Part shown: piece after piece, positions 2,362 through 18,859 of the stretch | Position numbering within the stretch: the first letter of the stretch is position 1 | Layout: each line of letters opens with the position of its first letter | Origin: Erysipelotrichaceae bacterium | GTDB taxonomy: Bacteria > Bacillota_I > Bacilli_A > Erysipelotrichales > Erysipelotrichaceae | Reading direction: 5' to 3' | DNA: 64,000 bases | NCBI GenBank assembly: GCA_017405675.1 | Contig: JAFRAB010000032.1 | Span: 1-64,000, forward strand | Program-made: the position numbers and the translations under genes | The notes under the pieces: generated by a model | What the model was told of the DNA's origin: nothing | What the model saw: only the letters and a program-made list of their open reading frames with translations | Database searches by the model: none

Positions 2362-2423
2362 TGCATACCCATAAACTCATATATTCCTTTATTTATAAGG
2401 GTTTTTCGTACTTTCTGAAAAAC

Positions 2424-2446
2424 TTGACCCCACGATTTGACCCCAC
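2424..2446 (+). repeat. Direct repeat pair, candidate arm site at left end of inner element
   Basis: TTGACCCCAC occurs at 2424-2433 and 2437-2446, with 13-base periodicity, about 63 bases inside the left att copy. The same decamer pair with the same spacing and orientation is at 22286-22308 inside the right end. This suggests binding sites for the N-terminal domain of the element's integrase. Confidence 0.6.
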
Positions 2447-3037: not shown

Positions 3038-3271
3038 TTACCTTATCGGTATGAACCATTCCATGACATCCATGAGACCTTCCTGGATCATCTGATATGT
3101 CTCTTCTGAATGATTAGCCTTCTCTGCCAATCCCCTTAAATAATCCAGCAATCTGTCCATCTTTCTTTTGAACTTAGCTATATCCTTTTCAGATAAACCT
3201 GATTCCTGAATAACAGTCTTTTCCTCATCATTAGTATTTTCTGATGCGTCATAAACAATCTTTGATTTCAT
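3038..3271 (-). CDS. Small hypothetical protein cotranscribed with RHH gene
   Basis: A 77-residue, largely helical, charged protein (from MKSKIVYDAS to WFIPIR). I chose ATG at 3271 because GGAGG lies 10 bases upstream; a longer frame to 3406 exists but lacks an equally good site. It ends 3 bases before the RHH-like protein gene. A small protein coupled to an RHH protein is typical of plasmid partition or accessory modules, but I recognise no family. Confidence 0.6.
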   Translation of the reverse strand: MKSKIVYDASENTNDEEKTVIQESGLSEKDIAKFKRKMDRLLDYLRGLAEKANHSEETYQMIQEGLMDVMEWFIPIR

Positions 3272-3633
3272 TTCTTCAAAACCTCCATAATACTTCCGGA
3301 TCTCTTCCGGGCAGTTCATTATAGTCAGTTTTTTGAAGAATCTTTGAAAAAGCAGGATAAGGGATTGCCGTATTTTCGTAGACAATCCGGTGACGATAGC
3401 CAGCAAGCTGACTGCGAAAAGCTTTTATTTATAGGAAATCCTGCTATTTTGTCATGTCATCAAACAGTCTACAACAATACTGATTTTACATATTTGTTTG
3501 GGAAATATAAAATTTTGCAATAATAATCAGCACAGGAATTACAATACTTACGCTTGAGCTATCAAACTATTCCATATATAAACGATCAAACAACAATTAT
3601 AGTCTTTTCTTTAGAAGCAACTATAACAATATC

Positions 3634-5619
3634 TTATAATTGTATATTCATTTCCTCTTTCAGATAATTATATATGTACAAAGAATAATACCTGAATTTA
3701 TATGGATCTAAGCATGTGGTATATGCTAAGTTCATGTGAACAATATTATTAATCTCATCTCGTATTGTTTCATCCTTTTTTCTTTTTGAACTACACATCT
3801 GTCTAGCGTATATAATTTTCTCGAATTGATTATATGATTCAACACAAATGTTCTTTTTATAGTTAGGGTCCAAGGGTTTATAACAAGCATTAAAGTCCTT
3901 ATTAATTACGTTTATAACATCTTCTTCTGTCTTGTTGATATTAGCTAGTTTTTTTATAATGTCTGATTTATTTTCCTCATGTAATATAGCTGATAAATAA
4001 TTATATACAGCCCTATGAAACATACTTCCTTTATTGATTTCATAATACAATCTTAAATTAATTGCCGTTTGATAATCAATTTTATGTGGCAATTGCATTA
4101 ATCTAGTTTTTATAAAAGATGTCATAGTATCAAAATCATCAAACTTAATTGGCATAATAGTATCATTATTAAAAGTGTCAATATAGTCAATCTTTCCAGT
4201 ATATTCTTGATATGATTTTTCTTTACTTGTGCTATTCATATGCCTATTTTTGTCTCTGTAAAAGGATGCAAATTTAGCAAATACATGATCGTGAGATAAT
4301 ACTAGGATGGTTGACTCTTTAGATTTTGTTTTATATATCATATCAAATACTATTTTTCTCTTAAATTCATCAAAAGAGCTGGCAGGGTCATCAATTACAA
4401 TATTTTTCGTATTTTTATTTGCAATTAAAAATAAAACTAAGCCTATTATGTTTTTTTCACCATATGATAAGTTATTAACTCTATCTATTTTGTTTTCTTC
4501 TTTGTTCGATCGAATAATATACTCTGCCGTCTTATTGAGTCCGTCGATTTTATGCTCTTCAAACAAATAGTCAATACCAATCTGAGCAAGATAATCATTT
4601 ATTTTTTTTACGTTTTTACCAATTAGTTTTTTAGTTGCACATTTTACTCTCCCCAACTTTTGCTTTATCACTTTATATTCATCATTGAATCTATATATTG
4701 CATTCGCTATTTCTGGATATAGTCTTTTTAGTTCGTTACTTACAGTAATTTTATTAAGCGAATCAACTGTAAAATCGACATTATTCGTAATAGTGATATA
4801 ACGGATTAATGTTCTAAGCTCTTCAAGAATCACATAATGATCATGTATCTGTTTATTAAACTTTTTTACTTCTCGTCTGTTCAACCAATTAGGTTCAAGC
4901 ATATTTAGCTCACTAAAAATATTGGAATATGAGTTTATTTTTTCATACGTTTTTGCATCGAAAACTAATAAATCTTCAATTTTGTTTATTCGCCCTTCTG
5001 TCAGTTTTCTATTACAAAATGGGCATTTACCATTTTTATAATTAGTTGTGTTTGTTCCATCCATAAACCATTTTATATCCTTAGAAGAATAGCCCTTATT
5101 TCTTGCGTAATTTCCATTATCACGAATATTATTAGTTAGCTTATTAATTAGGCATGATGATTTATATGTATTGTCTTTTTTATAATCAATCTTTAAATCA
5201 TTCACTAATGTATTGATTTTACCTTCAACTTCAAAAATGTAATGGTTTATTTCTAGCAACTCATTCACTGCACGTTGATATTCTTTTTTTAGCGCATCAA
5301 TCTCTCCATCTTCCCCCATTATAATATTATATACATCTCCATTAAGGGACTTGTTTATTAGTATATTATTTAAATAATCATTGTTAAAGACATTGAAAAC
5401 ATTAGACTCACTAACCATTTCATTATCGATTAAAACGCTTGGGATACTGTGTGATCCATATGGTACATGGTTTTCGTTTGTAGTATCTATATCAGAAATT
5501 GCATGAGCGATACTACTTTTCCCGGCTCCACTCACTCCTATCAAATAGTTAATTTTACAATTATCAATATAATACCTTAATGATTTAATGCTGTTATAAT
5601 TTTCTATTGTTATTTCCAT
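3634..5619 (-). CDS. AAA ATPase with zinc-hook-like CxxC (AAA_13/RloC-like), candidate defence protein
   Basis: A 661-residue ABC/SMC-type ATPase. Walker A is GVSGAGKSS (28-36), the signature is LSYGE (about 383), Walker B is VIDDPASSFDE (about 406), followed by an H-loop LSHDH. Between the two ATPase halves lies a probable coiled-coil insert with a single CPFC motif (about 199), reminiscent of the Rad50/RloC zinc hook. The C-terminal about 180 residues are helical and end in RDEINNIVHMN..., resembling the C-termini of AAA_13 proteins such as PrrC/RloC relatives. Those enzymes cut tRNA anticodons or cause abortive infection; here I cannot confirm a nuclease triad. It stands alone, with no restriction-modification partner nearby. 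Confidence 0.7.
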   Translation of the reverse strand: MEITIENYNSIKSLRYYIDNCKINYLIGVSGAGKSSIAHAISDIDTTNENHVPYGSHSIPSVLIDNEMVSESNVFNVFNNDYLNNILINKSLNGDVYNIIMGEDGEIDALKKEYQRAVNELLEINHYIFEVEGKINTLVNDLKIDYKKDNTYKSSCLINKLTNNIRDNGNYARNKGYSSKDIKWFMDGTNTTNYKNGKCPFCNRKLTEGRINKIEDLLVFDAKTYEKINSYSNIFSELNMLEPNWLNRREVKKFNKQIHDHYVILEELRTLIRYITITNNVDFTVDSLNKITVSNELKRLYPEIANAIYRFNDEYKVIKQKLGRVKCATKKLIGKNVKKINDYLAQIGIDYLFEEHKIDGLNKTAEYIIRSNKEENKIDRVNNLSYGEKNIIGLVLFLIANKNTKNIVIDDPASSFDEFKRKIVFDMIYKTKSKESTILVLSHDHVFAKFASFYRDKNRHMNSTSKEKSYQEYTGKIDYIDTFNNDTIMPIKFDDFDTMTSFIKTRLMQLPHKIDYQTAINLRLYYEINKGSMFHRAVYNYLSAILHEENKSDIIKKLANINKTEEDVINVINKDFNACYKPLDPNYKKNICVESYNQFEKIIYARQMCSSKRKKDETIRDEINNIVHMNLAYTTCLDPYKFRYYSLYIYNYLKEEMNIQL

Positions 5620-5693: not shown

Positions 5694-6092
5694 CTATTTT
5701 TTTGCATGACTCGTAAAACATTTGTTAATAATCATAACAATAAACAAAACAGCTACAAGAAAAACATCAATATAATACCCTATTTCAAATTGATTATACT
5801 TTTCATATGGATTTTGCCGTTTGGGGGAACTCTCACTAAGTAACCATATAGCCAAAAAAATGGTTAGATAAAGTTCTACAATAGTCACAAAAGAATTATC
5901 ATTTTTGCCAAAAAAAGCCAAAACAACCAACATCAATCCAGTAACAATGATAAATAAAAGAGATTGACCACTTATTTTCTCATATAATGGACTAACAAAA
6001 TAGTGAAATGATCTAAATGGAAATATTAATGCGTTTAAAATAAGTGCCACTCCCGTAACACCTATAACAATTTGAGGTATATTACGTTTCAT
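5694..6092 (-). CDS. Small four-helix membrane protein coupled to a secreted protein
   Basis: 132 residues with four hydrophobic segments and little else, ending in a Lys-containing tail. The start is set by an ATGA overlap at 6092: its ATG shares bases with the stop of the 430-residue secreted protein, implying translational coupling. A longer frame begins 6 codons earlier but has no benefit. A tightly coupled exported protein and membrane protein recall bacteriocin/immunity or ligand/receptor pairs, but no family is recognised. Confidence 0.65.
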   Translation of the reverse strand: MKRNIPQIVIGVTGVALILNALIFPFRSFHYFVSPLYEKISGQSLLFIIVTGLMLVVLAFFGKNDNSFVTIVELYLTIFLAIWLLSESSPKRQNPYEKYNQFEIGYYIDVFLVAVLFIVMIINKCFTSHAKK

Positions 6093-7381
6093 GGAGCGTA
6101 AGATGTGCAAATACCGCCATATGTTGCTAAATCAACATCATATCTTCCTAATGCAACAACAGCATTATCATAATATGTAGTGTTATACAAAGTTCCGGAT
6201 TGATGCACCCAATCAAAGACTCCGTTTGATAGATATCCTCCAGCAAAACCTCCAGCATTTGAATTGCTATAAGATAACGTTAACGTTAGAACATAATCAT
6301 TATATACCGTTGTGTCATATACATACCCATGTCTTTTACCAGAGTAAGAATAATTCCCCGATTTATATAATGTTGCTGGTTCAAAAATCTTTGTTATATT
6401 ATGAAGAATACTTACACTTGTTAATATAGCATCAACAACACTAATGTTAAGATTTCCTAAATAAATACCAATTGCGGTTAACAATGTATCTTCCACAAAA
6501 TTTTGCCCAGTAGATGATGTCCTTATATAATTATTCCTGGTTTCATATACTCTTACGGTTCGGCCAGCATGCAAGTAAGCTGATTGCATTGAATAATAAT
6601 CTTTTAATACTTTAGTATATGGAGGGAATTCCGCGATAAGACTATTAAGTAATTGGGTATTATTTGTAATACCAGTTACGTCTAAATTTGATTGTGTGTT
6701 ATTACTATATCCAAACATGGTTTGCCGTTCTGGTTCTATAAACGTGTTGCCCTCATCATCCAACAATAATTCTACTCCAGGTAACGCATTTATGCCATCC
6801 CAGTTTTCCTCATCCATCAACTCCTCCAGCATTGCTGCCCCTGATTCTGTCAATTTGCATTCTATACCTTTTCTGAAATTTGTGTATAGTTTAACAACAT
6901 TATCAAAAAATACAACCGCCTCATCACTGGAAGGTATGTATATAGATCTTTCCATCAAACGATTGTCTTTATATCTAAAAACAACTTCAGCATCATCTAT
7001 TGCGGTATATCCAACATATATTCCATCATTTTGTGTTTTCTCTATGAATCTTACTGTCCTACACATTGGAATATATTGATTCAGGTAAACAGAATTATAT
7101 ATGGTATACGGTGAATAAACACTATCCGAGTCATCTACCAATACTGATAACTCAACTATCTTATCCTCAATGGTTATATCTTGTTCTTGATCGGATAACA
7201 AAGCCGACTCATTTAAATTATATCGATTATACTCTGAACATTCTTCTAAAGACACATCATGTACTGTGGTATAATTTACCACAGTATAAATATCGTTCGA
7301 TTCTTCTGCATAAACAAATGTAGCCCCAACTGTAGTTATTAAAACAAGAAATGACAATACTAATATCGTTATTTTCTTCAC
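6089..7381 (-). CDS. Large secreted protein of unknown function
   Basis: 430 residues with a clear signal peptide (MKKITILVLSFLVLITTVGATFVYA, likely cut after VYA). The start is a GTG seven bases after AGGGAGG. The middle is acidic; around 290-320 there are two hydrophobic stretches (LLTAIGIYLGNL and VVDAILTSVSIL) that could form a hairpin. The C-terminal 110 residues are rich in Tyr, Asn, Ser and Gly and end in ICTSYAP. A similar plan (signal peptide, acidic region, hydrophobic hairpin, aromatic tail) is seen in the 243-residue protein at 7940-8671. I recognise no family. Confidence 0.75.
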   Translation of the reverse strand: MKKITILVLSFLVLITTVGATFVYAEESNDIYTVVNYTTVHDVSLEECSEYNRYNLNESALLSDQEQDITIEDKIVELSVLVDDSDSVYSPYTIYNSVYLNQYIPMCRTVRFIEKTQNDGIYVGYTAIDDAEVVFRYKDNRLMERSIYIPSSDEAVVFFDNVVKLYTNFRKGIECKLTESGAAMLEELMDEENWDGINALPGVELLLDDEGNTFIEPERQTMFGYSNNTQSNLDVTGITNNTQLLNSLIAEFPPYTKVLKDYYSMQSAYLHAGRTVRVYETRNNYIRTSSTGQNFVEDTLLTAIGIYLGNLNISVVDAILTSVSILHNITKIFEPATLYKSGNYSYSGKRHGYVYDTTVYNDYVLTLTLSYSNSNAGGFAGGYLSNGVFDWVHQSGTLYNTTYYDNAVVALGRYDVDLATYGGICTSYAP

Positions 7382-7637
7382 TATTTTTCCTCCCTATATA
7401 TTGTCTTTAATCTAAGAAAACTCTTTTATACATAATCATTAAAGCCGTTGTAAGTATACCCTTTACCTCTTTTAGTTTTATAAAGTATTTTAGATACCTT
7501 CTAAAATTCTTTACCACTACACCTAATCAAAATACGAGCAAAATGACTTTGTATCATATTTGGGCCTATCAAAAACTATATTATTTATCAAATTGCTATT
7601 ATTTGATAACGAGAGCACTATTAATTTGTTGTAGTTA

Positions 7638-7943
7638 TTAACTCTTTTTACTTTCTGTTTCTTCAATAAGGTCTTGCAATTCTTCAGGTAAAAGTATTCT
7701 TTTCCGAAAATATGCAATGAGATAACCTGTAATCATTCCAGCAAGGCGATATACTGTTTGTAAACTTTTGTCTGATGATAATAATGAACCGACTCCCATA
7801 CCAATAAAAGGCATAGTAGAGTAAATAAAACAAACTAGTTTTATCAGTTTTATATACCTCTTTTTAACCACATATGTTTTGTTTTCAAAGGATATCTTTC
7901 CGTTTTCTAATGAAAACAGTATACTTATTCTCGTTTTAGTCAT
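7638..7943 (-). CDS. Small two-helix membrane protein
   Basis: 101 residues with two hydrophobic segments (about 31-55 and 66-82) and an acidic C-terminus (LPEELQDLIEETESKKS). Its ATG overlaps the stop of the secreted protein at 7940 (ATGA), exactly as in the 6089/6092 pair. This second secreted-plus-membrane pair strengthens the case for a functional two-protein unit. No family recognised. Confidence 0.65.
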   Translation of the reverse strand: MTKTRISILFSLENGKISFENKTYVVKKRYIKLIKLVCFIYSTMPFIGMGVGSLLSSDKSLQTVYRLAGMITGYLIAYFRKRILLPEELQDLIEETESKKS

Positions 7944-8671
7944 GCTGGATATGTGTTAACTAAGGTACGACACGGTGCCGGATAATAATAATTCCATGGA
8001 GTAGCTGACCAAAAGTGTCCAACACTTGAGCTACCTAGATATGTGCCCATAGAACTGTTTGTATAGTATGATGCATATGTTTTGCTTAAAATGTAGCAAT
8101 GATAGTTACTTCTATAATACTGAACAAAATAAGCGTTTCCATATTGGAATTGAACATTATAATTAATCAAAAGAGTTGCAACCGTTATTAAATTGTTCAC
8201 GTATGTCGCATATGGGCCCAGTAGTTTATTTAATAACACTGAAGCAAGAGCACTAATTAATTCATTTGTAGCAGAAGAAGGGACAGATACTGTACCCGTT
8301 CTGTATTGATGCCATGTCGGATCCCAGTCTGTACTATTATCATACAAAGCTCTGATTGTTTCCCTTGAATCATTATATCTGGTTTCAAAATCAGCAAATA
8401 TACCATCTAATACCTCAATATCCAATGGTTTTATATCGTGTTCTTCAAAACTACACACAAATGTTTCTATCTTTTCTCCCGTATCATAATTGTAGACTGT
8501 GACAATATCCCCATTAGTCGAAGTGATGACACTAAGTCCATTTCTATTATGCAATATTACCTCTTTATCTTCAGTTATCTCTACCCAATACTCATCTTCA
8601 GCATAGATAATGGAACAAAATCCGCTAAATAACAACATTGCACTTAATACGCTTACTATTATTTTCCTCAT
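7940..8671 (-). CDS. Secreted protein of unknown function, paired with a membrane protein
   Basis: 243 residues with a signal peptide (about 1-24, ending in SIIYA). AAGGAG precedes the ATG. An N-terminal beta-rich acidic part is followed by a hydrophobic helical pair (ELISALASVLLNKLL and NNLITVATLLI) and a Tyr/Ser-rich C-terminus ending in LVNTYPA. It has its own promoter at 8709-8738. Its architecture parallels the 430-residue neighbour. No catalytic motif is seen. Confidence 0.75.
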   Translation of the reverse strand: MRKIIVSVLSAMLLFSGFCSIIYAEDEYWVEITEDKEVILHNRNGLSVITSTNGDIVTVYNYDTGEKIETFVCSFEEHDIKPLDIEVLDGIFADFETRYNDSRETIRALYDNSTDWDPTWHQYRTGTVSVPSSATNELISALASVLLNKLLGPYATYVNNLITVATLLINYNVQFQYGNAYFVQYYRSNYHCYILSKTYASYYTNSSMGTYLGSSSVGHFWSATPWNYYYPAPCRTLVNTYPA

Positions 8672-8708
8672 ACAATTAGTCTCCTTATAATTTGATTATA
8701 ATTCAGCA

Positions 8709-8738
8709 ATTATCTATTTATGTGGCCAGAATTGTCAA
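8709..8738 (-). promoter_or_regulatory. Sigma-A-like promoter for the 243/101-residue pair
   Basis: On the minus strand TTGACA (8733-8738) and GATAAT (8709-8714) are separated by 18 bases, 38 bases upstream of the start at 8671. This indicates that the 7638-8671 pair is a separate transcription unit from the genes upstream. Confidence 0.65.
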
Positions 8739-8899
8739 ATAAATGTCCTGTTTTGGTCAAAATCCATCTATTTTCTTGATATTTGTAATGAAAACTTAGT
8801 ACTGCAATAAGATATGGTACAAATTATCGCTTATTTTATACACACCACTATTTCAATAGTTAGGCAAGATTCTGTACCATCATTAATCCTAAAGCTAAA

Positions 8900-9955
8900 C
8901 TAATTATCAATAAATACTCTTTCCGAAAGCCACGCCCTATTAACTGTTGCAACATAACTACCATGATTATCAACAACCATTAATAAATCATTAGCACTGC
9001 CTGTATCATCATAATACCTATAAGCTAATACCCAATGATTGCCATATGTTGAACCCAGAGCAGCCAAAAGTCCTACTACCAAAGGATAGCCAGAGTTAAT
9101 TTTATTAATGCTTCCAGTCCACACACTTACTACGGATGCGGCAAATTGATGTCCTGAAGAAACATATGAATACGTTTGTAAGAAATTATTACCACCAACC
9201 AGTAGGTGACTGCCTACAGTCCCTCCTGGATGCAACTGATCAATATATGTAAATAAAGTACTAATTAATGTCCCAGGACTATTTGAATACTGTGATCGCA
9301 TAGATGAAGGCACATAATTACTGTTTACATAATCTTGATAATAGGCAAGTAATCCTGCCGATGCAATTGTTCCACAAATACCTGCGCTTGGATATCCTAG
9401 ACTAGTTGGGTAATGGGCGAGATCATTAATCCACATACCAGATGAATAACTTGACATTTTCCACGAAGGAATACCTGCCCAAGTAGCTTTTGAAAATCTT
9501 TTCATTTCTTCATCTGAATAGCCATTAGTATTATTACAGAATTCCTGATTCTTTGCTAATAATGTTTTGTCAACTTGTGAAACAAATGACATCATTTCAG
9601 CTTTTTCATTAAAAGTAAAATAATTAAATGGTCCTCCATACAAATTGTATTTAGCATCAGTATGACCATAAGGTAATACATTATTACTTAAATCAAACTC
9701 AGATAGAGCACCATTATTAGCACTCGCTATAATATACCCCTTCTCCAACTCTATGTATACATATTCCTTTTCACCACTCAATCCATATAGATACATGTAT
9801 GATGTGTAATCAACTTGTGTTTTCTCTATTGACTCAACTAAATACAGTGCAGTGTCAACACATTTTGGAATTTTATCAAACGCTTCAAATCGTTGACCAA
9901 TACCCGAACAAACAGTTATTATTCCAACCAATAAAGAAATCATAATTCTTTTCAT
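8900..9955 (-). CDS. Secreted C39/papain-like cysteine protease
   Basis: 351 residues with an N-terminal hydrophobic signal region. The C-terminal 170 residues carry the order expected of a papain-fold peptidase: a cysteine motif GICGTIASAGLLAYYQD (about 195-211), a histidine in GNHWVLAYRY and an Asn/Asp in VVDNHG. This resembles C39-type and streptopain-like peptidases. The N-terminal part (30-150) could be a propeptide. Its ATG overlaps the stop of the membrane-anchored protein upstream (ATGA at 9952-9955). It could mature neighbouring exported proteins or act on outside targets; this is inference. Confidence 0.7.
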   Translation of the reverse strand: MKRIMISLLVGIITVCSGIGQRFEAFDKIPKCVDTALYLVESIEKTQVDYTSYMYLYGLSGEKEYVYIELEKGYIIASANNGALSEFDLSNNVLPYGHTDAKYNLYGGPFNYFTFNEKAEMMSFVSQVDKTLLAKNQEFCNNTNGYSDEEMKRFSKATWAGIPSWKMSSYSSGMWINDLAHYPTSLGYPSAGICGTIASAGLLAYYQDYVNSNYVPSSMRSQYSNSPGTLISTLFTYIDQLHPGGTVGSHLLVGGNNFLQTYSYVSSGHQFAASVVSVWTGSINKINSGYPLVVGLLAALGSTYGNHWVLAYRYYDDTGSANDLLMVVDNHGSYVATVNRAWLSERVFIDN

Positions 9956-10524
9956 ATTTTACTCTCTCCTTTCAAAATAACAGATAATAAATCTTCAAAA
10001 ATACTTATGTATGAACTGTCAGATATTGGGTTATTGAGCCAATAATCTTTAATATCCACGTTATCATATGTTGTTATCGTTATTCGAATAAATCCCCTTT
10101 CTAATTTAATTACAGCATCAGCACAGGCTCCCGTATTTCTGTCCATAATTTTAATGTCTACATTATGGCCACAAACATTTATGGCGAGTATTCTGTATTT
10201 ATTATCTCGTTTACTCTCTACAAAATAGTTTTTCTTATCAGCAACACTTACAACAATGTTAAAATAATGACTATATTGCTTGGTACCTCTAAAAACATAT
10301 TCAGTTTTTTTATGCGTTAATAAAGAATAATGGTGTTCTTTTTTATACGTGAAAGATAAATCTTTTATAGCAGTGCCATATAGATCATCTATTTCCTCAA
10401 CAGTATAAGTTGGAGTTGTATCAATAAAACCAGATAAGAGAAAAAGGATTAGTACCACAATCCGTAAATGTCTTTCAAAAACAATGCCAGAAAAAGAATA
10501 TGTATCTATACGTTTTAGCCTCAT
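9952..10524 (-). CDS. Membrane-anchored exported protein coupled to cysteine protease
   Basis: 190 residues from ATG at 10524 (GGAGG five bases upstream), with one hydrophobic anchor (about 20-37) and a beta-rich domain containing two cysteines (NVCGH, GACAD). An alternative TTG start at 10569 also has a strong AAGGAGG and would add 15 residues; I prefer the ATG because the signal anchor then lies near the N-terminus. It overlaps the downstream protease gene by ATGA. It could be a chaperone, inhibitor or partner of that protease, but no family is recognised. Confidence 0.6.
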   Translation of the reverse strand: MRLKRIDTYSFSGIVFERHLRIVVLILFLLSGFIDTTPTYTVEEIDDLYGTAIKDLSFTYKKEHHYSLLTHKKTEYVFRGTKQYSHYFNIVVSVADKKNYFVESKRDNKYRILAINVCGHNVDIKIMDRNTGACADAVIKLERGFIRITITTYDNVDIKDYWLNNPISDSSYISIFEDLLSVILKGESKI

Positions 10525-10654
10525 CTTTACCTCCGATATCTTTACTGTGTATCCCCTCCCATTGGGCAAGGTTTTTCCTCCTTTTTTACGGTCCTAACTG
10601 GTTTATTTCTTAATAGTTTTATCTCGTCATTTATATACTTTCCTCCTTGTTATA

Positions 10655-11209
10655 TCATTCCAATATAGGGCACATCATCAAACCAATCAGTTTATCGATT
10701 CTATCAACCAGTTCTTCTAAACCATCCTCTTGTAATGTTGTTTGTACACTAACATATACTTGATATTCATAATTATCATCCTGTATAATTTGATATTTTT
10801 GTACATATTTCCCATATTCTGTATCATTAATAACTGTACGATTCTGTACTTTTAGATCGTTTATAATACCATATTCCTCAATTGAGCTAATCCCATTCAA
10901 AACTGTGATTCGAAAGTTGGTTTTATCATCAGAAAACAATGTCCCTTGAATCTCATAGCCACAGATTGAAGAATTTCGATATACACTTTCCGTTATCGCA
11001 GAATACTTATTTACATATATTTCATTTGATGTAAGATCTGGATATTGAACTTTTTCCAATTGTATAGTCACTTTTTTCTTTAAAGATTCGAAATCAGAGA
11101 AAACCATTCTATGGTCTGAATACTGTGGTAAATAGTAATACACTATACAAATAACAGCAAATACTGACAAAACCAGAAGGCAATCCCAAATCGTTATTCT
11201 GTTTTTCAT
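10655..11209 (-). CDS. Membrane-anchored exported protein
   Basis: 184 residues: one N-terminal transmembrane anchor (LLVLSVFAVICIVYYYL) and an outside domain with alternating polar and hydrophobic strands, ending in LIGLMMCPILE. It starts 8 bases after the stop of the Amidase_6 gene upstream, so it is probably cotranscribed. No family recognised. Confidence 0.65.
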   Translation of the reverse strand: MKNRITIWDCLLVLSVFAVICIVYYYLPQYSDHRMVFSDFESLKKKVTIQLEKVQYPDLTSNEIYVNKYSAITESVYRNSSICGYEIQGTLFSDDKTNFRITVLNGISSIEEYGIINDLKVQNRTVINDTEYGKYVQKYQIIQDDNYEYQVYVSVQTTLQEDGLEELVDRIDKLIGLMMCPILE

Positions 11210-11217
11210 TTTCTAAT

Positions 11218-12201
11218 TTATAAACATATGAATCTAATGTACGAATATCCACTCATAACGCTTAATAATGGCCAGTTATATCTATCATTATTATGTCCGC
11301 AATAGAGAAAATCCTTATTAGTGCTGTCATACGCAGTAATAATCACAACATGTGCTGGAGTTTGCCACCACACGGTTGAACTGTAGAAAACAATCGCATC
11401 ACCAACATATATGTCCTCATAATAGATATCAGTATGGCTGGATGTATAATCTACACAGGCATAGTAATAAGTATGGTCACACCTCGAATTCCAAAATGAT
11501 GTAAACTGGTTTGCGCTAATCCAAGGGCTAGGATCAGCTAAGCTCCAGCTGGAATTCAACTCATCTATACTCTGTGGGGCAGGATTATTATTATTTAGTT
11601 TATAACAATACCAGTTATCAAACATTCCAATTCCCCCATGATACATAGCTTGAGACACAAAATTTGCACAATCTCCATTAACTCCATCACAATCCGGGAA
11701 ATCAGACGGTCTAGTATTATAATTGTTTTTCGCCCAAGTAGTAGCTGTTGCGCGATTATATGTATATCGCAAACCAATCGATTTATCTTTTGCAGATGTT
11801 ATTTTCTGAAATGCATTGATTACCTCTCTATCTTGTGAATCTTTAGCATATCGACAGAAATATAAATCAACTAATTGTTTAGTTTCATTATCCAATTCAT
11901 TATAAATACCCAGAAGTAATTTCATTGCTATAATCTTATCATCTCTTTCTATTGAAGTGATTATTCCAGTGAACTGTTTAGGCAATAAATTCTCTAATGT
12001 TAAATCCATATTGTAGTATTCATCCAACGAAATAATCACTTGTGGATCAACCGCGAAACCGCTTTTATTCTGATCAATAATATACACTTCTACATAAGGA
12101 CTAATAGATTCTTGACTATTATCTAGTGCCATTATGGGATTAACTGTTATTATCATTGCTAAAACCGTAACTAAAATACCTATTTTTTGATGAATTCTCA
12201 T
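11218..12201 (-). CDS. Secreted Amidase_6-domain protein
   Basis: 327 residues from ATG at 12201; a TTG 8 codons upstream is less likely. A signal peptide ends near PIMA. Residues 155-327 match the putative amidase domain (Amidase_6, CHAP/NlpC-like fold): YNRATATTWAKNNYNTR, then the catalytic cysteine region GDCANFVSQAMYHGG, then a histidine in AHVVIITAYDS. In Bacillota this domain is found in secreted or spore-related proteins thought to act on peptide or amide bonds; the substrate is not established. A second such gene lies at 12929-13985. Confidence 0.85.
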   Translation of the reverse strand: MRIHQKIGILVTVLAMIITVNPIMALDNSQESISPYVEVYIIDQNKSGFAVDPQVIISLDEYYNMDLTLENLLPKQFTGIITSIERDDKIIAMKLLLGIYNELDNETKQLVDLYFCRYAKDSQDREVINAFQKITSAKDKSIGLRYTYNRATATTWAKNNYNTRPSDFPDCDGVNGDCANFVSQAMYHGGIGMFDNWYCYKLNNNNPAPQSIDELNSSWSLADPSPWISANQFTSFWNSRCDHTYYYACVDYTSSHTDIYYEDIYVGDAIVFYSSTVWWQTPAHVVIITAYDSTNKDFLYCGHNNDRYNWPLLSVMSGYSYIRFICL

Positions 12202-12462
12202 TTTCTTTACCTTTCCGTTAATCAAAACTATACACTAACACTCTATGGTGTATCTGCTTTTTTTCACATACACTTATGTTTGTTATACTCCCTATCCACA
12301 TTCATGTTATAGTTATGTCTCTTTTTTGTTTGATGTTCTTATCCGCATCCATATATTTACGCTTTTCCCCTGTCATTAAGCAAAGTTTTCTAACTCCTTT
12401 CTTTATTCATTCAACTAGAGATGACGCTTATGCATATATTCTTGGAAAATCTACAGCCTTTT

Positions 12463-12888
12463 TCACGGTCTGCCGCTATCCAGATATTTCCAGTTTTCTC
12501 TTTGATCTTTTCCAAGTATATACACTATTTCATGAATACTGTTCCGCCTGAAGGCAGGACGATCTCTGTTGCCCACTTTAAAAACTATCTCAAATACAAT
12601 GTGTTCACTGACACCATACTGTTTATCAAGATATTGAAAGACAACAGATTCATTTTGTGTATCTCCAATATACTGCAGTTTTAAGAGTTCACAGCCCCTC
12701 ATCTCTTTCTTAAAATGTTCTTTTATAACTTTGATAGCTTTCTGAATCTCTTCTTCTGTATATAATTCTGAAGAGACCTCAATAACTTCAACGTTCTTGA
12801 CTATTCCTCTTGGTGTAATGAATAAAAAACAGGCAAACCCAATAATGCACAAAAGAACCAAAATGATATTTCTTATTCTTGTTTTCAT
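12463..12888 (-). CDS. Small membrane-anchored exported protein
   Basis: 141 residues with an N-terminal hydrophobic anchor (ILVLLCIIGFACFLFI) and a helix (YTEEEIQKAIKVIKEHF) before a beta-rich domain. It ends in ENWKYLDSGRP, an ending seen in several small lipoprotein-like families in Bacillota. It follows the frameshifted Amidase_6 gene by 40 bases. The 260 bases downstream, before the next amidase gene, hold no convincing gene. Confidence 0.6.
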   Translation of the reverse strand: MKTRIRNIILVLLCIIGFACFLFITPRGIVKNVEVIEVSSELYTEEEIQKAIKVIKEHFKKEMRGCELLKLQYIGDTQNESVVFQYLDKQYGVSEHIVFEIVFKVGNRDRPAFRRNSIHEIVYILGKDQRENWKYLDSGRP

Positions 12889-12928
12889 ATAATCAAATCA
12901 CCTAAAGTTGAACTGTCAGTTAACCTGT

Positions 12929-13985
12929 TCAAGGTTGTGGACTTGAACGTGCTCCTCTTATTATGATAAATACATTGTCTCCGTTTTCTTTTGCAGGCCA
13001 ACCACTGTTACTTGCCCATTTATAATAATCATTACTGTGCTGTGCTATTTTATGATCATAATAACCTGATGTTTTATAACTATCAACTGTAGTTACATAA
13101 GCAACATGATCCCATTCACCATCTTGATCATCTTCGTATCCAATAAAGCACCCCGGAGCCAGCCATCTTGTAAAAGTACTGTACGATGTAGTTTGAAAAC
13201 TGGAATACTGATGATATCTAACAAATTTGTCAGCCCAAGTCCAGGATCTGGAATAGGTATGTGAACCTAAAACATTGTGGTGCCACCAACCAGCGTATAT
13301 GTTTGGAAAATTATCCACCATTGTTTCCCCTCCTGCTATCAGAATCTGAGAACAGAAGTTTGCGCAATCCCCACCAGATATATAACCGTAAGTAGAACTG
13401 TTAGCACTAGTTGCATATGTTATCGCATATGTATTTGCTGTAGAAACACTGAATGATGTCACAGCCTTCTGGCCATTTTCTTCGAAATAGTCTTTGACAA
13501 ATTGATTGAAGTTTGGAAGTTCATATGCCAAGTATTCCGTTATGTCCTCACCTGTACTTTTGCTTCTTGCTATAGTGTTTCTTATATCCTCGTTTTGCTC
13601 TTTGTTCTCAAAAATGTCAAAGAACCTTAATGCTGTTCTATACTCTGTCACTGTTCCGGCTACAAAACTGCCACTCAGCATGTCGTTTTTTATCAGCAAA
13701 TAATAACTGGTAAAATTACCTGTTGACATTTTTGTTAATTCATACTTTTCAGAATAATATTTCAAAAATGATTGATTTTCTTTTGCAAAGGTTTCTAAAG
13801 CACTCTCCTGATTTTTAAACTCTATATAATTCCAGTTTATAACCGCTGTAGTCAATGATTTCACCTTGTATTATTTCTCCAAACTGGTCTGGCCCTTCGT
13901 AAGCCTCCTCCTCTGCTTTAAAACTGGTATTGGCAAAGGTAATTAATAAAACTATCGACAAGACTAAACAAATATACTTTTTCAT
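12929..13985 (-). pseudogene. Secreted Amidase_6-domain protein, frameshifted
   Basis: The signal peptide and the enzyme domain are in different frames. ATG at 13985 (GGAG six bases upstream) opens a frame with a good signal peptide (MKKYICLVLSIVLLITFA) that continues to GYKLELYRV and then stops. The main frame, readable from about 13882 to 12929, encodes the Amidase_6 domain with GGDCANFCSQILIAGG and a histidine in DHVAYVT. The two frames overlap for roughly 60 bases, where one indel would join them. No obvious slippery heptamer is present, so this is a mutation, a phase state or a sequencing error rather than clear programmed frameshifting. Without the join, the domain would start at a GTG (13864) and lack export. 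Confidence 0.75.
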
Positions 13986-14096
13986 TCAAATCTCCTTTAA
14001 TTGTTATTTACTTTTCGCTAGTAACTAAGCAAGGTGCTATAATAAAGACAATATGGTATTATGTTATTGATAATAGGCGCAAAGTATTATCGTATT

Positions 14097-14135
14097 GCTA
14101 ATTCAGCCTAAGACCAAAACTGAATTAGCTTTTTT
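14097..14135 (+). terminator. Orphan plus-strand terminator
   Basis: GCTAATTCAG and CTGAATTAGC form a 10-bp stem with a 13-base loop, followed by six T residues on the plus strand. All genes here run on the minus strand, and no plus-strand gene ends at this point. On the minus strand the hairpin is preceded, not followed, by the T-complement run. It may end an unseen antisense or small RNA, or shield the amidase gene promoter. Confidence 0.6.
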
Positions 14136-14177
14136 GTTTGGTTCCATATCCAACCCCTTTTTATTTAAATAAACATT

Positions 14178-14639
14178 TCATTCACTGCCATTGCTCAAAT
14201 CAGTACACCAATGGCTGCTGGAACAGGCATAACCTTTTGTACTTAGAGGTATCAATATCGCTACCAGATCACACATATCATTATCACTAGACAACTTAAA
14301 GCATTCATTATTGATTTTATAGTATTCTTTATCTGCCACAAAAACTTCTACTATATTACTTCCCCTTTTAAACCATAAATGGTATTTCCATAAAACATTA
14401 TCAGGTTCATTCACTATTTCGTCTTCATCCCTGACAAAAATGTCAAACATATTCTTCTCAGTATAGTAGTACTGGTTTGTTTCTATGTCTTCAATCGTTA
14501 TTTCACTTGACTTGTATATTATTTCCTGGATCCTAGCTTGCTTTTGCTTATTAGTATTTATACGCAACAGACTACATGTCAAAAAAACGGAACAGATAAG
14601 GAAGGAAACACACAATACCTTTTTTAAGTTCTTTTTCAT
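14178..14639 (-). CDS. Small exported protein
   Basis: 153 residues with an N-terminal hydrophobic segment (VLCVSFLICSVFLTCSLL), possibly a lipoprotein signal although no classic lipobox is present. The rest is acidic and beta-rich; the tail has three cysteines (one in the end of the domain, then YACSSSHWCTD). It starts one base after the stop of the 410-residue secreted protein. No family recognised. Confidence 0.6.
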   Translation of the reverse strand: MKKNLKKVLCVSFLICSVFLTCSLLRINTNKQKQARIQEIIYKSSEITIEDIETNQYYYTEKNMFDIFVRDEDEIVNEPDNVLWKYHLWFKRGSNIVEVFVADKEYYKINNECFKLSSDNDMCDLVAILIPLSTKGYACSSSHWCTDLSNGSE

Positions 14640-14640
14640 A

Positions 14641-15873
14641 TTATGGTTCCACTGTAATATTTGTTATTTTATAGAAATAAGAAGTAGATATAGTCGCCGT
14701 TATAATGTTCCCCGAATCATAATACTTATATTTGTATGTGATCTTTGCTTTACTAGAAATGTACGTCAATGTATTATATGAAACGTTCCCATTGTATCTA
14801 AAATCAACATTAAATGGAAATCCTTTGTTTGAATTATATGTTCCATCGGATATACTCGAATTAAATCCAGTTGTTTTACAAATAATCCATGTTATCTTTC
14901 CATAGTTATTTGCACTTGAATTATGGTACCTTTGTGCTGACGTTGATGTCGTACTTATTGTCACATCAACACTTTGAATACCCAGGAGCTCTCCAGCATA
15001 GAAGAATAGAGGTATTGTATATGAAGTTGATGAATTGACCGGTTCATATCCTCCTGGAGGGATATCCCAATCTGCCTCACTACCATATACCGTTGTTTCT
15101 ACTTGGTACGTATATACCATAGTTGCTGAACTAACTCCTGCATTGTTAACTAAATAACTGTTAACATTACCTGTATTCGTATTAATCTTTACATCTACTT
15201 CTGCACTGTTACCATTTTGAAGGTTATTCTGATGAATAACACTGATCTGACCAACAACATAGTTGCCAAAATAAGTTGAATTATATCCCTGAAAATGTCT
15301 GGTATAGTCAGATCTAACTTGTGCTGCATCATATGACATGTTTTCGTTGCTAGTTATGATACTGTCATTATTCATTTTTGTTTCTATATCAAACATTTCA
15401 TTATATTTATCTATCAACTTTTCTATATCTTCTGTGATACACCCATAACACAAAATACTTCTTTCACACGATTTATCATTATAATATGTGAATGTTGCAA
15501 ACATCTCGTCGTTAATGTAGTAAGCATCTATATCGACATATACTTTTTCTTTCCCAGAGAACAATTCACCGGTGAAATATGTGTAATATCCTTTTCCTTT
15601 ATTCAAGTCAAAGCCAAGAGGTTCACCAACACAATAACCTGTATATGCATTATTAGAATATTCAAAGGTCACCATTGCATTGTTTTCTTTATCAATAGTC
15701 ATCGATAATGTCGATTCTTTTTCAACTTCTTTTCCTGTGACTCTCAAAACCATGTCATAATTGATTTTCAAACAATATGTTCTCTCGTCATCGTTGAATG
15801 CTAATGTTTTATCGCCGGTTATTGTATAAACAACTATAAGTACACTTAATATAACTCTGATTATTCTTCTCAT
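14641..15873 (-). CDS. Large secreted beta-rich protein
   Basis: 410 residues from ATG at 15873 (AAGGG upstream; the longer TTG frame is rejected). A signal peptide (about 1-25) is followed by an acidic N-terminal domain with cysteine pairs (SCERSILCYGC) and a Ser/Thr/Asn/Tyr-rich C-terminal half of repeated beta-strand pattern (for example SVDVTISTTSTS and TATISTSYFYKITNITV). This composition is typical of surface or matrix proteins. No LPxTG or other anchor is visible. No family recognised. Confidence 0.7.
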   Translation of the reverse strand: MRRIIRVILSVLIVVYTITGDKTLAFNDDERTYCLKINYDMVLRVTGKEVEKESTLSMTIDKENNAMVTFEYSNNAYTGYCVGEPLGFDLNKGKGYYTYFTGELFSGKEKVYVDIDAYYINDEMFATFTYYNDKSCERSILCYGCITEDIEKLIDKYNEMFDIETKMNNDSIITSNENMSYDAAQVRSDYTRHFQGYNSTYFGNYVVGQISVIHQNNLQNGNSAEVDVKINTNTGNVNSYLVNNAGVSSATMVYTYQVETTVYGSEADWDIPPGGYEPVNSSTSYTIPLFFYAGELLGIQSVDVTISTTSTSAQRYHNSSANNYGKITWIICKTTGFNSSISDGTYNSNKGFPFNVDFRYNGNVSYNTLTYISSKAKITYKYKYYDSGNIITATISTSYFYKITNITVEP

Positions 15874-15908
15874 ATGTTTTCCCTTTCTTCTTCGCAACAC
15901 TTCTCGTT

Positions 15909-16766
15909 CTATACATTTATTGAAATACTTTGTTCTGCCATTTCATAGCCATTGGAATAGTTAAACCCCAGGTTACTATCCAGAGTTATCGTAGTTGGTG
16001 TAGACGAAATACCATGATTATAACCAAAACCAAAGTCAATCCTAGATAAGTATGATCCTGTAACCTTAACAACCATATAGCCCGTTTTTGCCCAGCATTC
16101 AACATTTCCTATCATCACATCCGTAGTAAACTGACTATACACGTATGAATTACTGTTACCTATGGTTATTCCTTTCCGTTGTGTTGTCTGTGCTGTACTA
16201 CCGTTATAGTATGTTACATAACAATATGATCCTGAACTGTTATATGAAGCGGTAATCTGTGTTCCCAACGAGTTATACGCTTTCCACCTGAATGCCGTGG
16301 TTTCAAAATAAGTAGTAGAAGTAACCAATGGTCTGCTGTTCCATGACCAATTCGCTCTTACCGTAACAGCTGAGGAACTGCCGCTTACCTTGATCAACGA
16401 TACAGATAAAGTAGCCAGAACTGATCTTAACTGAGGATTATCCTCTATCTTCGATCCATCATACTTTCTGAGAGCATTGATCTGTGTATCAGTCATTCCT
16501 CGTTCATAGAGTTCACTGTCATTCATCGCTGCTAACTTTACAATCTGGTTTTCAATACTTAAGACTGTTTCATAATCATGTTTATTGATTCCAAAAGTCT
16601 TTTCAGCTTCATCAAATGTCATTTTTCTGACTGTGAAATAATAGTCATACTCACTCAACTGATATGTTTCTGTCTCACTTATTTCTTCTGCTTGTGTAGT
16701 ATCTGTCCGGCTAAAAGCCACTATTAAAACAAGCATAAGAAGAATTATCTTTCTTACTGATTTCAT
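15909..16766 (-). CDS. Secreted protein of unknown function
   Basis: 285 residues with a signal peptide (about 1-26, ending in TTQA). An acidic helical N-terminal part (YDYYFTVRKMTFDEAEKTFG...) is followed by a Ser/Thr/Tyr-rich beta domain, as in the 410-residue neighbour. It follows the HTH membrane regulator by 10 bases and is therefore probably under the same promoter. No family recognised. Confidence 0.7.
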   Translation of the reverse strand: MKSVRKIILLMLVLIVAFSRTDTTQAEEISETETYQLSEYDYYFTVRKMTFDEAEKTFGINKHDYETVLSIENQIVKLAAMNDSELYERGMTDTQINALRKYDGSKIEDNPQLRSVLATLSVSLIKVSGSSSAVTVRANWSWNSRPLVTSTTYFETTAFRWKAYNSLGTQITASYNSSGSYCYVTYYNGSTAQTTQRKGITIGNSNSYVYSQFTTDVMIGNVECWAKTGYMVVKVTGSYLSRIDFGFGYNHGISSTPTTITLDSNLGFNYSNGYEMAEQSISINV

Positions 16767-16776
16767 TATTCTTTTA

Positions 16777-17604
16777 TTACTTTCTTCCCTTTCTTACATT
16801 ATTCTTGATAAGATGATACCCACAGTAGAGAATCCAACACGTGTAAACAACAGTACAGATTCCAAGTAGTAATTTCATATTGTAAAAATCAATTACGTGA
16901 AAGCCATACATAGCTCCATTAATCGACAAAACTTCTATATTTGCAATCAGTAACGGTGTTACATCAGCAAACAGCACATAGTTAAGCAACAGGTTAACTT
17001 CCAGGACAACCGCATATAACAGAAACAGTCTCAAACATTTCATTTTGTCTTTTTTCTTATATATCAAATAGCTAACTAAAACCACATATAATATTGAAGA
17101 CAATAATGTACTGAAATGTCCTACTCTACCCATCATCAAGCATAAGAAACCCATTGTTGTTGCGGCAAGATGTATGATCAGCAACCAAAACCAGGTTAAG
17201 TCATCTTTGGTTTCTTTTTCATTCATTCCTATGGTTTGAACTGATACTTTCCCGAGTTGTTCTTTAATATCACTTATGTCGTTACTGATGTTACTGACCG
17301 TTTCATCTGTTGAAGCAATTCTGTCATTTATAGAATCGATTCCGGAATCAACTGATGCAAGTTTTCTATTAACTTCTCTTTCAATACTTATTTGTCCCTC
17401 ATATACTTCTTCCAGAGATATATTGAATTCATTACAGATATGAATGACATCCATCATTGATGGAATAGCTTCGCCTCTTTCCCATCTTTTAATTGTACTT
17501 CCGGAAACACCAAGAAGTTCCCCCATACCATCACGGGACAAATCTTTTGTATTTCTAAGTTTGGTCAATAGTAGCCCGATTTTTTCCTTATCCAATTCTT
17601 TCAT
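16777..17604 (-). CDS. HTH regulator with coiled coil and membrane domain
   Basis: 275 residues. Residues 5-60 form an XRE-type helix-turn-helix (LSRDGMGELLGVSGSTIKRWERGEAIP). Residues 70-125 look like a coiled coil (SIEREVNRKL...SIDSINDRIA pattern), and 140-270 contain about five hydrophobic segments. This architecture suggests a transcription factor tethered to the membrane that senses envelope or outside signals. It is the first gene of the exported-protein block and probably controls it, including its own promoter region, where inverted repeats lie. The start is supported by AAGGATAG upstream. Confidence 0.75.
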   Translation of the reverse strand: MKELDKEKIGLLLTKLRNTKDLSRDGMGELLGVSGSTIKRWERGEAIPSMMDVIHICNEFNISLEEVYEGQISIEREVNRKLASVDSGIDSINDRIASTDETVSNISNDISDIKEQLGKVSVQTIGMNEKETKDDLTWFWLLIIHLAATTMGFLCLMMGRVGHFSTLLSSILYVVLVSYLIYKKKDKMKCLRLFLLYAVVLEVNLLLNYVLFADVTPLLIANIEVLSINGAMYGFHVIDFYNMKLLLGICTVVYTCWILYCGYHLIKNNVRKGRK

Positions 17605-17673
17605 AAACTATCCTTTTCTGAAAAGCGGTTTGTTGTGCAGCTGATTCTTGTTTATGGTGTTACTCATATTGAT

Positions 17674-17682
17674 ATTATACCA
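17674..17682 (-). promoter_or_regulatory. Extended -10 promoter for the exported-protein block
   Basis: On the minus strand TGGTATAAT is an extended -10 element about 70 bases upstream of the HTH gene start at 17604. There is no good -35, as is usual for extended -10 promoters. An inverted repeat lies just upstream. Confidence 0.5.
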
Positions 17683-17704
17683 CTCATCTGTGAACATCAT
17701 CCCA

Positions 17705-17729
17705 AACAAGATCGAAATTCAATCTTGTT
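17705..17729. promoter_or_regulatory. Inverted repeat, candidate operator
   Basis: AACAAGAT and ATCTTGTT are perfect 8-base arms around a 9-base centre, placed just upstream of the -35 position of the promoter at 17674-17682. A smaller inverted repeat (GTACA...TGTAC) is at 17741-17754. Either could bind the HTH protein encoded downstream. Confidence 0.45.
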
Positions 17730-17769
17730 ACTAGCTGCTGGTACAACAATGTACAATTACCATCATATA

Positions 17770-17783
17770 CCCCCCCCCCCCCC
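17770..17783. repeat. Poly(C)14/poly(G)14 tract in a promoter-like context
   Basis: Fourteen C residues on the plus strand, next to a G and seven T. On the minus strand the G14 tract lies between a TTGTAA -35-like element and TATGAT/TATATG -10-like elements, with a spacer of 20-22 bases. Slipped-strand changes of a few bases would move the spacer through the 17-base optimum, as in known phase-variable promoters. The 391-base gap 17605-17995 contains this tract, the inverted repeats and the extended -10 promoter, and no gene. Confidence 0.6.
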
Positions 17784-17995
17784 GTTTTTTTACAACATTA
17801 TTCTGATTAAAACTGTGTTGTTCGAGCAGGCAAACATACTCATCAAGAATATATTTTTTTGCAATTGCCCCTCTTTCAATAGCATTATAAATGTAATTTT
17901 TCTATGAAAAGAGACCAGGAATAATATAAAAAAGGTCAATTTTGGCCAATTTGCAGAAAACATTGGTAAATACACTTACAAAGGCATTATGATAA

Positions 17996-18694
17996 TCATT
18001 CCACCCAAAACTTAAATACCAATGATGTTACTTTCTTACTGCCGTTTTCCTTAATCTCTTTAAACTGTAACCCTTTGATGTAGTTCTTCTCTGTAATCTC
18101 ATTTAATGCCGGCAACAGTACTCTTCTTCTCAACTGAGCAAAATCATCATATGTTTTTGCTTCAGCTCCCATGTATTCTCTGAATTGCTCAACACTTATT
18201 CTTCTGTATCCGGTGTTGCGGAACTGTTTCAGAAAAGCATATAAGCGCTTTGAGTACATCGTTTTCAAACTGCAGTACTCTGTAAGGCTAAGGTAGGTAA
18301 ACCTGCTGGAAGGCAGGAAAAACTCCAGAAAATCAGGATTAGCCTTGACGGTGATCATTCTGTTTTTCTTATCATTGATCACTTCCGTAAAGACTACCAT
18401 TTCAACTCCTGTCGCCTCATTTTCAAATTCATACCAGCAGGACAGTATCGTTTTCTTGAATCTGTCTATTTCCTTCTTATACATTTCATAAGAAACATGA
18501 TCATCAATGCTAAGGTATTCCTTTAACTCCCAATAGTAAAAACAGCATTCACTCCTGTGAACTTTTTCTATGTTTTTTCTTAACTCTCTTATTATCAGGC
18601 AGAACAGATCTGCTCCGAATCTGTCCATGTTTCTAAAGCCACGTTCTACTACATCATTCCTCATTACCAGGATTCTTTTTACTTCTTGATTCAT
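17996..18694 (-). CDS. rep: Rep_3-family plasmid replication initiator
   Basis: 232 residues from ATG at 18694 (AGGTGA upstream; the ORF can be extended 14 codons with no support). Two winged-helix-like halves are visible: VMRNDVVERGFRNMDRFGADLFCLIIRE and LTEYCSLKTMYSKRLYAFLKQF, with an arginine-rich region (FAQLRRRVLLPALNEI) typical of Rep_3/RepB initiators. These proteins bind iterons and open the origin of theta-replicating plasmids. Iteron-like repeats lie directly upstream at 18736-18859. Its presence implies that the element can replicate, or descends from something that could, outside the chromosome. Confidence 0.85.
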   Translation of the reverse strand: MNQEVKRILVMRNDVVERGFRNMDRFGADLFCLIIRELRKNIEKVHRSECCFYYWELKEYLSIDDHVSYEMYKKEIDRFKKTILSCWYEFENEATGVEMVVFTEVINDKKNRMITVKANPDFLEFFLPSSRFTYLSLTEYCSLKTMYSKRLYAFLKQFRNTGYRRISVEQFREYMGAEAKTYDDFAQLRRRVLLPALNEITEKNYIKGLQFKEIKENGSKKVTSLVFKFWVE

Positions 18695-18735
18695 TAACAT
18701 CACCTGAATAATTATAGATGTCAGAACAGTGTACA

Positions 18736-18859
18736 TGACAGAATAGACATATACCCTATACCGGAATTGACAGAATTCTTTCTAAGAATTTCATTATTGA
18801 CAGAATGGAATTACCATCATTGACAGAATACAAACGATAATTACCGAATATGACAGAGC
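18736..18859 (+). repeat. Iterons, candidate replication origin
   Basis: TGACAGAAT occurs at 18736-18744, 18768-18776, 18798-18806 and 18821-18829, with a degenerate fifth copy TGACAGAGC at 18851-18859. All are in the same orientation, with spacings of 32, 30, 23 and 30 bases, that is, close to whole helical turns. They begin 42 bases upstream of the Rep_3 gene, in AT-rich DNA. This is the usual layout of an iteron-controlled theta origin. No DnaA box was recognised. Confidence 0.7.

Follow-up and report, generated by a model that had tools for sequence, protein, structure and literature searches.

Gene content of the locus

The window, by which we mean the whole stretch of 64,000 nucleotides that was analysed, comes from an Erysipelotrichaceae-like gut bacterium and contains an element of about 20.1 kb sited at tRNA-Ala (Table 1). 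Its integrase, its attachment repeats and its tRNA target bear out the integrative element proposed in the preliminary description; the 17-bp attachment sequence is present in two exact copies (expected 0, from 100 shuffles). Tandem TTTGACCCCAC-type repeats just inside the left end have a matching pair at 22285-22308 and are probably arm sites of the integrase. The second integrase probably belongs to a neighbouring element inserted in tandem at the same site. Copies of the element integrase with 92-93% identity were found in 3 of 272 family genomes, and in a sister element the slot corresponding to the block is occupied by restriction-modification. No relaxase or conjugation genes were detected among the element ORFs scanned (short ORFs lay outside the scan), nor did a DNA search of phages and plasmids with the first 22.7 kb return a match.

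Table 1. Positions of the features discussed in the text; a dot marks a feature without strand.
Feature	Position	Strand	Evidence or remark
Second integrase	607..2157	-	domain match; 58% to first integrase
Left attachment site	2345..2361	+	exact 17-bp copy of tRNA-Ala 3' end
Tandem TTTGACCCCAC-type repeats, interior of left end	2423..2446	+	
Backbone protein	2540..3034	-	45% to sister-element protein; ribbon-helix-helix-like by eye
Backbone protein	3038..3406	-	43% over 53 aa to sister-element protein
AAA_13 ATPase	3634..5619	-	top PADLOC match, over the full length, PDC-S06 (candidate defence protein), E 2.8e-39
TM138, 4-TM membrane partner	5694..6110	-	22-nt overlap with sec430
sec430, secreted	6089..7381	-	hydrophobic stretch (by eye)
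TM101, membrane partner	7638..7943	-	4-nt overlap with sec243
sec243, secreted	7940..8671	-	hydrophobic stretch (by eye); C-terminal Tyr/Cys-containing domain
Module 4 promoter	8695..8759	-	imperfect left box, right box TGACAATTCTGGCC, TATAAT
C39/papain-like cysteine protease, predicted secreted	8900..9955	-	C194 and H307 invariant, 7 proteins aligned
anc205, anchored partner	9952..10569	-	4-nt overlap with C39-like gene; hydropathy
anc184, anchored partner	10655..11209	-	8 nt after ami335; relative regulator-fused in G009
ami335, secreted Amidase_6, module 3	11218..12225	-	Amidase_6 match
anc141, anchored partner	12463..12888	-	relative fused to regulator in G002
ami311, Amidase_6, module 2	12929..13985	-	Amidase_6 match
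anc153, single-pass anchored	14178..14639	-	1 nt after sec419; hydropathy
sec419, secreted	14641..15900	-	2 further relatives (52 and 54%)
sec285, secreted	15909..16766	-	25 further proteins, 53-96% identity (protein collection), some partial
HTH_3/multi-TM regulator, first gene of module 1	16777..17604	-	HTH_3 match, hydropathy
C14/G14 homopolymer in regulator leader	17770..17783	.	homopolymer search
Regulator promoter	17884..17947	-	operator box GGCCAAAATTGACC and TATAAT; second box degenerate
Rep3 replication initiator	17996..18736	-	domain match
Tyrosine integrase of element	19116..20675	-	domain match
Schlafen/AlbA_2 + winged-helix protein	20723..22093	-	domain match
tRNA-Ala(GGC), integration target	22454..22529	-	right attachment copy 22454-22470

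The block itself (5694-17604) comprises 14 ORFs, all on the minus strand and crossed solely by short plus-strand ORFs; the consecutive minus-strand run described earlier stands, but its count of twelve genes does not. When the range is extended to 17783, it also covers the regulator leader with its C14/G14 run. The GC content of the block is 31-35%, against 38-45% on its right side. The genes fall into modules, and next to each of six secreted proteins lies a small membrane-bound or anchored one. Spacing is tight inside the modules, as had been claimed, with overlaps or gaps of 1-40 nt within pairs, but four gaps between modules measure 192, 237, 228 and 256 nt. Module 1 consists of the regulator, sec285, sec419 and anc153, module 4 of sec243 and TM101.

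The exported set includes two Amidase_6 proteins (E 1.6e-20 and 4.1e-17), one C39-like protease and four families of unknown fold. Membrane and secretion calls come from a simple hydropathy count, in which signal peptide and anchor look alike; by this count four proteins have one N-terminal hydrophobic segment and are taken as anchored (three or more had been described), and the two secreted-plus-membrane pairs named in the preliminary description are present. Assignment of the protease as papain/C39-like agrees with its family, of which 3/7 members match Peptidase_C39_2 (best 5.2e-5); the window protein gave no match to it at E<=0.5. Profile searches of the PDB with the C39 and Amidase_6 families gave no match either. 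The signal-peptide part of ami311 (13985-13815) and its mature part (13864-12929) lie in different frames, therefore ami311 is probably broken; its relative in genome G002 is intact.

Both sec285 and sec419 are Ser/Tyr-rich and appear by eye to be of beta type. Their AlphaFold models (mean pLDDT 49.8 and 44.3, respectively) were too weak for a fold search, and profile comparison gave no convincing kinship between them (probability 4.9%) or between sec430 and sec243 (6.3%). One of the three rows in the alignment behind the latter comparison and the sec243 family search is P0030, in which the N-terminus of a regulator is joined to a sec243 C-terminus, a chimera that may be an assembly error; matches obtained with this alignment lie within the sec243 portion (129-242 of the profile).

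No bacteriocin or immunity family, and no lactococcin 972 structural protein, was matched by any of the 14 block ORFs (Pfam E<=0.1, NCBIfam E<=1). A sporulation cluster and a RiPP were rejected, neither having a family match in Pfam or NCBIfam, and the earlier statement that no named system has this set agrees with the libraries searched. PADLOC, with which four of the 14 ORFs were scanned, matched the N-terminal HTH part of the regulator (best E 4.7e-8) and returned nothing for the C39-like and both Amidase_6 proteins.

The regulator and its operator

As described before, the regulator comes first: it matches HTH_3, the hydropathy count gives it five hydrophobic segments, and its coiled coil was judged by eye. 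Its relatives have a common operator made of tandem palindromes of the form KGACA-N4-TGKCM. A matrix from which window data were excluded gives its top score 5' of sec243, at the right box TGACAATTCTGGCC of the module 4 promoter, which is the best operator match in the window. A further match lies 5' of the regulator, in a promoter approximately 280 nt upstream of the start codon. In the gaps preceding modules 2, 3 and 5 no operator reaches 8.5 bits. An initial pattern with a 6-nt spacer was discarded; its one exact match was at a regulator in G003 and the others were two-mismatch sites. No k-mers of 8-12 were common to at least three of the six upstream regions.

The operator pattern led to an operon in G002 that has a regulator relative at its head and also contains a secreted protein and ABC genes. 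The latter are nearest to the lactococcin-972 type, the ATPase having L_ocin_972_ABC as its best match, under the family cut-off. ABC ATPase or permease immunity genes are absent from the window block and were seen only in this relative operon.

Recurrence of the modules

Searches of the 272 family genomes with sec285, ami335, C39, anc141, sec243, the regulator and the integrase reached no second copy of the whole block. Its pairs, however, recur, so that the independent occurrence which the preliminary description had named as refuting is half borne out. A membrane partner accompanies sec243 in 5/5 places and a related partner accompanies sec430 in the single place found (1/1); sec285 relatives have a small TM protein in 4/8 cases and C39-like proteases an anchored protein at 3/8 loci. 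Units of regulator and exported protein recur in other genomes as well. The general pairing, the regulators fused to anchored domains, the common operator and the sister-element defence genes had escaped the preliminary description. The plasmid protein search yielded nothing for C39 and sec285 and one distant Amidase_6, while sec285 pattern matches in viral_contigs and genome_contigs included no confirmed relative.

Among partners of other C39 proteins, three were compared with anc205 and showed no detectable kinship; TM101 is related to only one of three sec243 partners compared. The anc141 family alone is found in 62/272 genomes. Secreted protein sec367 of G004 was unrelated to the three window proteins compared with it (sec430, sec243 and sec419).

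Possible function of the block

We suggest, with a probability of roughly 0.55, that the block is mobile cargo in which a transmembrane one-component regulator controls exported modules of effector and partner. Its best reading is a regulated, bacteriocin-like arsenal, where both killing and immunity are what we infer, and as far as the literature was searched it looks like an undescribed toolkit against neighbouring bacteria. A signal at the cell surface would make the regulator act on the promoters of modules 1 and 4. The secreted proteins would in turn cause damage to the wall or membrane of element-free competitors, and the membrane partner would shield the producer and its element-carrying neighbours. 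Because partner domains occur fused to the regulator, some partners may additionally serve as reporters of the exported protein. If cells that have lost the element are killed, this would also aid its retention.

There are several observations that count against an arsenal. The cargo matches no known bacteriocin or immunity family, modules 2, 3 and 5 are not preceded by an operator of at least 8.5 bits, and two boxes deviate from the pattern: the second one of the regulator, which is degenerate, and the left one of module 4, which is imperfect. Further, 4/8 sec285 relatives and 5/8 C39 loci have no partner of this kind, anc205 and TM101 show kinship to none and to only one, respectively, of the three other partners compared with each, and the anc141 family alone is found in 62/272 genomes.

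Among known systems, bacteriocins with dedicated immunity resemble the block in that its exported proteins adjoin membrane proteins. Colicin M-type systems are Gram-negative and their enzyme family is not known to be related to the window enzymes. Their immunity protein is anchored and faces outward, with two topologies (PMC4661593), a form that the anchored partners of the window resemble. On plasmid pBL1, lactococcin 972 operons pair a bacteriocin with ABC genes of putative immunity function (PMC4055356). Such operons place a secreted protein and its membrane immunity on a mobile replicon and help to maintain that replicon (PMC4055356), a layout that the block with its putative immunity partners resembles, and the G002 ATPase, under the same operator, is nearest to this type; unlike these operons, the block has no ABC genes and its effectors are larger, enzymes among them. 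Transmembrane transcription regulators are a known and widespread class with DNA-binding domain and TM segments in one chain, as here, although Xre and HTH_3 are mentioned 0 times in the main text of the source (PMC10269533).

The strongest alternative, which we nonetheless regard as doubtful, takes the block for a sensing system of the co-component kind, with the anchored and polytopic proteins as sensor partners of the regulator, as ToxS and VtrC are for ToxR and VtrA; the secreted enzymes would release or process a signal (wall fragments, peptides), with no antagonism involved. In those systems a membrane-tethered HTH regulator has a fast-evolving single-pass partner, often encoded by an overlapping gene (PMC9214523), and the gene overlaps of the block resemble VtrA/VtrC. 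The window likewise has a membrane-tethered HTH regulator, and domains like anc141 and anc184 are fused to HTH-membrane regulators in G002 and G009, respectively. In G004, moreover, secreted, anchored and regulator genes form one run. As to the place of the partner gene, the anchored gene of G004:C14 overlaps on the upstream side; in the window sec285 and sec419 stand between the regulator and anc153. However, the window regulator is of the HTH_3 family, multi-TM and from a Gram-positive-type host, and several partners and secreted enzymes stand in one block. One regulator faces six partners, and relatives of sec243 and sec430 occur with their partners without such a regulator in the stretches read.

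The same fusions allow a tentative extension of the arsenal reading, possible at most: an outward-facing domain that protects from an exported enzyme by binding it may occur interchangeably as an anchored protein of its own and as part of the transmembrane HTH regulator. One fold would then both confer immunity and sense self or competitor, and tandem-palindrome operators would link regulator and effectors.

It is unlikely that the block instead serves contact with host or food, its proteases, amidases and adhesin-like proteins acting in the gut to modify mucus, antibodies or the wall of the producer itself. Five of the ten MAGs nearest by S41 protease are titled goat, sheep or roe deer gut, and the Ser/Tyr-rich, beta-type sec285 and sec419 would suit such contact, but this leaves unexplained why each of six secreted proteins should come with a fast-changing membrane partner of its own and why a regulator relative stands at the head of an operon containing bacteriocin-type ABC genes. 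Least probable is a mere accumulation of independent chromosomal modules in a cargo slot without joint function: modules do occur apart (sec285 and sec430 relatives lie on different contigs in G248) and only 2/5 have an operator match, yet that operator links modules 1 and 4, and P0022 (a sec285 relative) and P0033 (a sec419 relative), with longest contig 32514 and the same sources in both, suggest a joint contig.

If the arsenal reading is true, gut Firmicutes beyond lactic acid bacteria possess a modular set of weapons that is mobile and has a membrane switch to itself, and operator and pairs provide a clear handle for finding further such sets. The partner-regulator fusion would let one test whether bacteria sense competition by reading immunity proteins of their own. 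The block also points to several secreted families without Pfam or NCBIfam match. Finally, the C14/G14 run is the sole G or C run of at least 9 in the window and in the fetched loci, which total 1.08 Mb with some overlap, and it may possibly serve as a slippage switch.

Organization of the exported-protein block

The block comprises 14 ORFs on the minus strand, listed from 17604 down to 5694, and we divide it into five modules. Module 1 ends 192 nt before the start of the ami311 signal peptide, and the spacers between modules 2 and 3, 3 and 4, and 4 and 5 measure 237, 228 and 256 nt. From these coordinates it follows that each of six secreted genes adjoins a membrane or anchored gene, sec285 being grouped with the regulator.

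Features of the block and its integrative element (sec, secreted; ami, Amidase_6; anc, single-pass anchored; TM, membrane partner; C39, C39/papain-like protease)
Feature	Position	Strand	Composition
Module 1		minus	regulator, sec285, sec419, anc153; gaps 10, 8, 1 nt (ORF coordinates)
Module 2		minus	ami311, anc141; gap 40 nt
Module 3		minus	ami335, anc184 (gap 8 nt); after 85 nt, anc205 overlapping C39 by 4 nt
Module 4		minus	sec243, TM101; overlap 4 nt
Module 5		minus	sec430, TM138; overlap 22 nt
ami311 gene	12929-13985		signal-peptide and mature parts in different frames
Inverted repeat	14097-14130		GCTAATTCAG...CTGAATTAGC, in the anc153-ami311 spacer, without a T run
G14 tract	17770-17783	minus	between promoter and start of regulator gene
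tRNA-Ala(GGC) 3' end	2345-2361, 22454-22470		exact 17-bp copies
AAA_13 ATPase	3634-5619		between backbone and exported block
Second integrase	607-2157		beyond left attachment site

In a simple hydropathy count, the secreted and anchored proteins have one N-terminal hydrophobic segment each, TM101 one, TM138 four and the regulator five. For ami311 the count gives none, owing to the frame break that separates off the signal-peptide part; an intact relative is present in G002. Among the 14 ORFs, only two Amidase_6 domains and the regulator HTH match Pfam above cut-off, none is named above the NCBIfam cut-offs, and no bacteriocin family model of either library is matched. Predicted structures of sec285 and sec419 were too weak to give folds.

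Two sec243-like modules lie inside about 4 kb in genome G193 (L213:126-4229), one with a small TM partner, the other with an anchored one; the type of partner can change. One protein, P0030 (200 aa), joins a regulator HTH N-terminus to the C-terminal domain of sec243, as a recombination product or an assembly chimera.

Operator sites

Upstream of six regulator units of other genomes (G003 included), two KGACA-N4-TGKCM-like palindromes, 6-7 nt apart, precede a -10 box. A matrix of their twelve boxes, window letters excluded, scores highest in the window before sec243 (17.1 bits, 8724-8737), with 0.04 sites at 17.0 bits or more expected in the first 22.6 kb. The site before the regulator (17934-17947) scores 15.2 bits; two further sites fall in coding sequence (16.6 at 14432, 16.0 at 1110), against 0.25 expected at 15.1 bits or more. 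When a TATAAT 10-44 nt downstream is demanded of sites of at least 14 bits, the first 22.6 kb retain two, the sec243 and regulator promoters, and the chromosome part of the window has none; 5 of 300 shuffled controls had one and 0 of 300 had two. The regulator promoter matches the layout of that in G001:C2, its second box being degenerate.

Across ten genomes, the 7-nt-spacer pattern gave 39 strand hits versus 8 for a reversed control, many of the 39 counted on both strands because the pattern is near-palindromic. Eight places had at most one mismatch, two elsewhere in G009 and six at regulator units, five of which had already served in writing the pattern. The exact site in G002:C23 is new; it lies 63 nt upstream of a gene for a secreted protein of 140 aa. 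Next come genes for two large membrane proteins, for an ATPase with the lactococcin-972 ABC family as its best match, though below cut-off, and for a regulator of the same family as ours. This operon is the strongest single indication of antagonism. The regions upstream of G002:C10, G010:C74 and G004:C5 yielded no such site.

The G14 tract is possibly a phase switch; in the window and in 1.08 Mb of loci it is the only G or C homopolymer of at least 9 nt.

The most probable model

The block has exported proteins, coupled and recurring genes, an operator and signs of mobility. We suggest that a surface cue would lead the regulator to activate or repress at operators. Effectors would then act on competitors, presumably killing them, and the membrane or anchored partners would confer immunity and may also report. 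Bacteriocins with membrane immunity (PMC4661593, PMC4055356) and transmembrane regulators with co-components (PMC9214523, PMC10269533) are known arrangements, and by comparison individual parts of the block may function likewise. Their combination was not found in the open-licence literature searched.

The integrative element and its relatives

Between the two copies of the tRNA 3' end, with tandem TTTGACCCCAC-type repeats just within each end, the 20.1-kb interior carries the exported block together with genes for an integrase, Rep3, a Schlafen-like protein and a PDC-S06-like AAA ATPase. The ATPase is a full-length PADLOC match to the candidate defence protein PDC-S06. The second integrase is 58% identical to the element's own. 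The host S41 protease shares 70% identity with three MAGs (two labelled Erysipelotrichaceae, one uncultured Firmicutes).

The element integrase recurs at 92-93% identity in 3 of 272 family genomes. In G007 (20 kb read), tRNA-Ala(TGC) is followed by AbiEi/AbiEii, integrase, Rep3 (73%), several small genes, a type I restriction-modification set and both backbone genes (45% and 43%). In G005, integrase and Rep3 adjoin tRNA-Ala(GGC) near tmRNA, the same setting as in the window, and the contig stops there. The backbone and kind of site are therefore common to the window and the sister element, and in the slot between Rep3 and backbone restriction-modification replaces the exported block, as judged from G007, the one sister element in which the sequence read spans that slot. 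By eye, this sister element has a recombinase surrounded by specificity-type genes of type I in both orientations (L083:14114-18392), and this specificity is possibly invertible.
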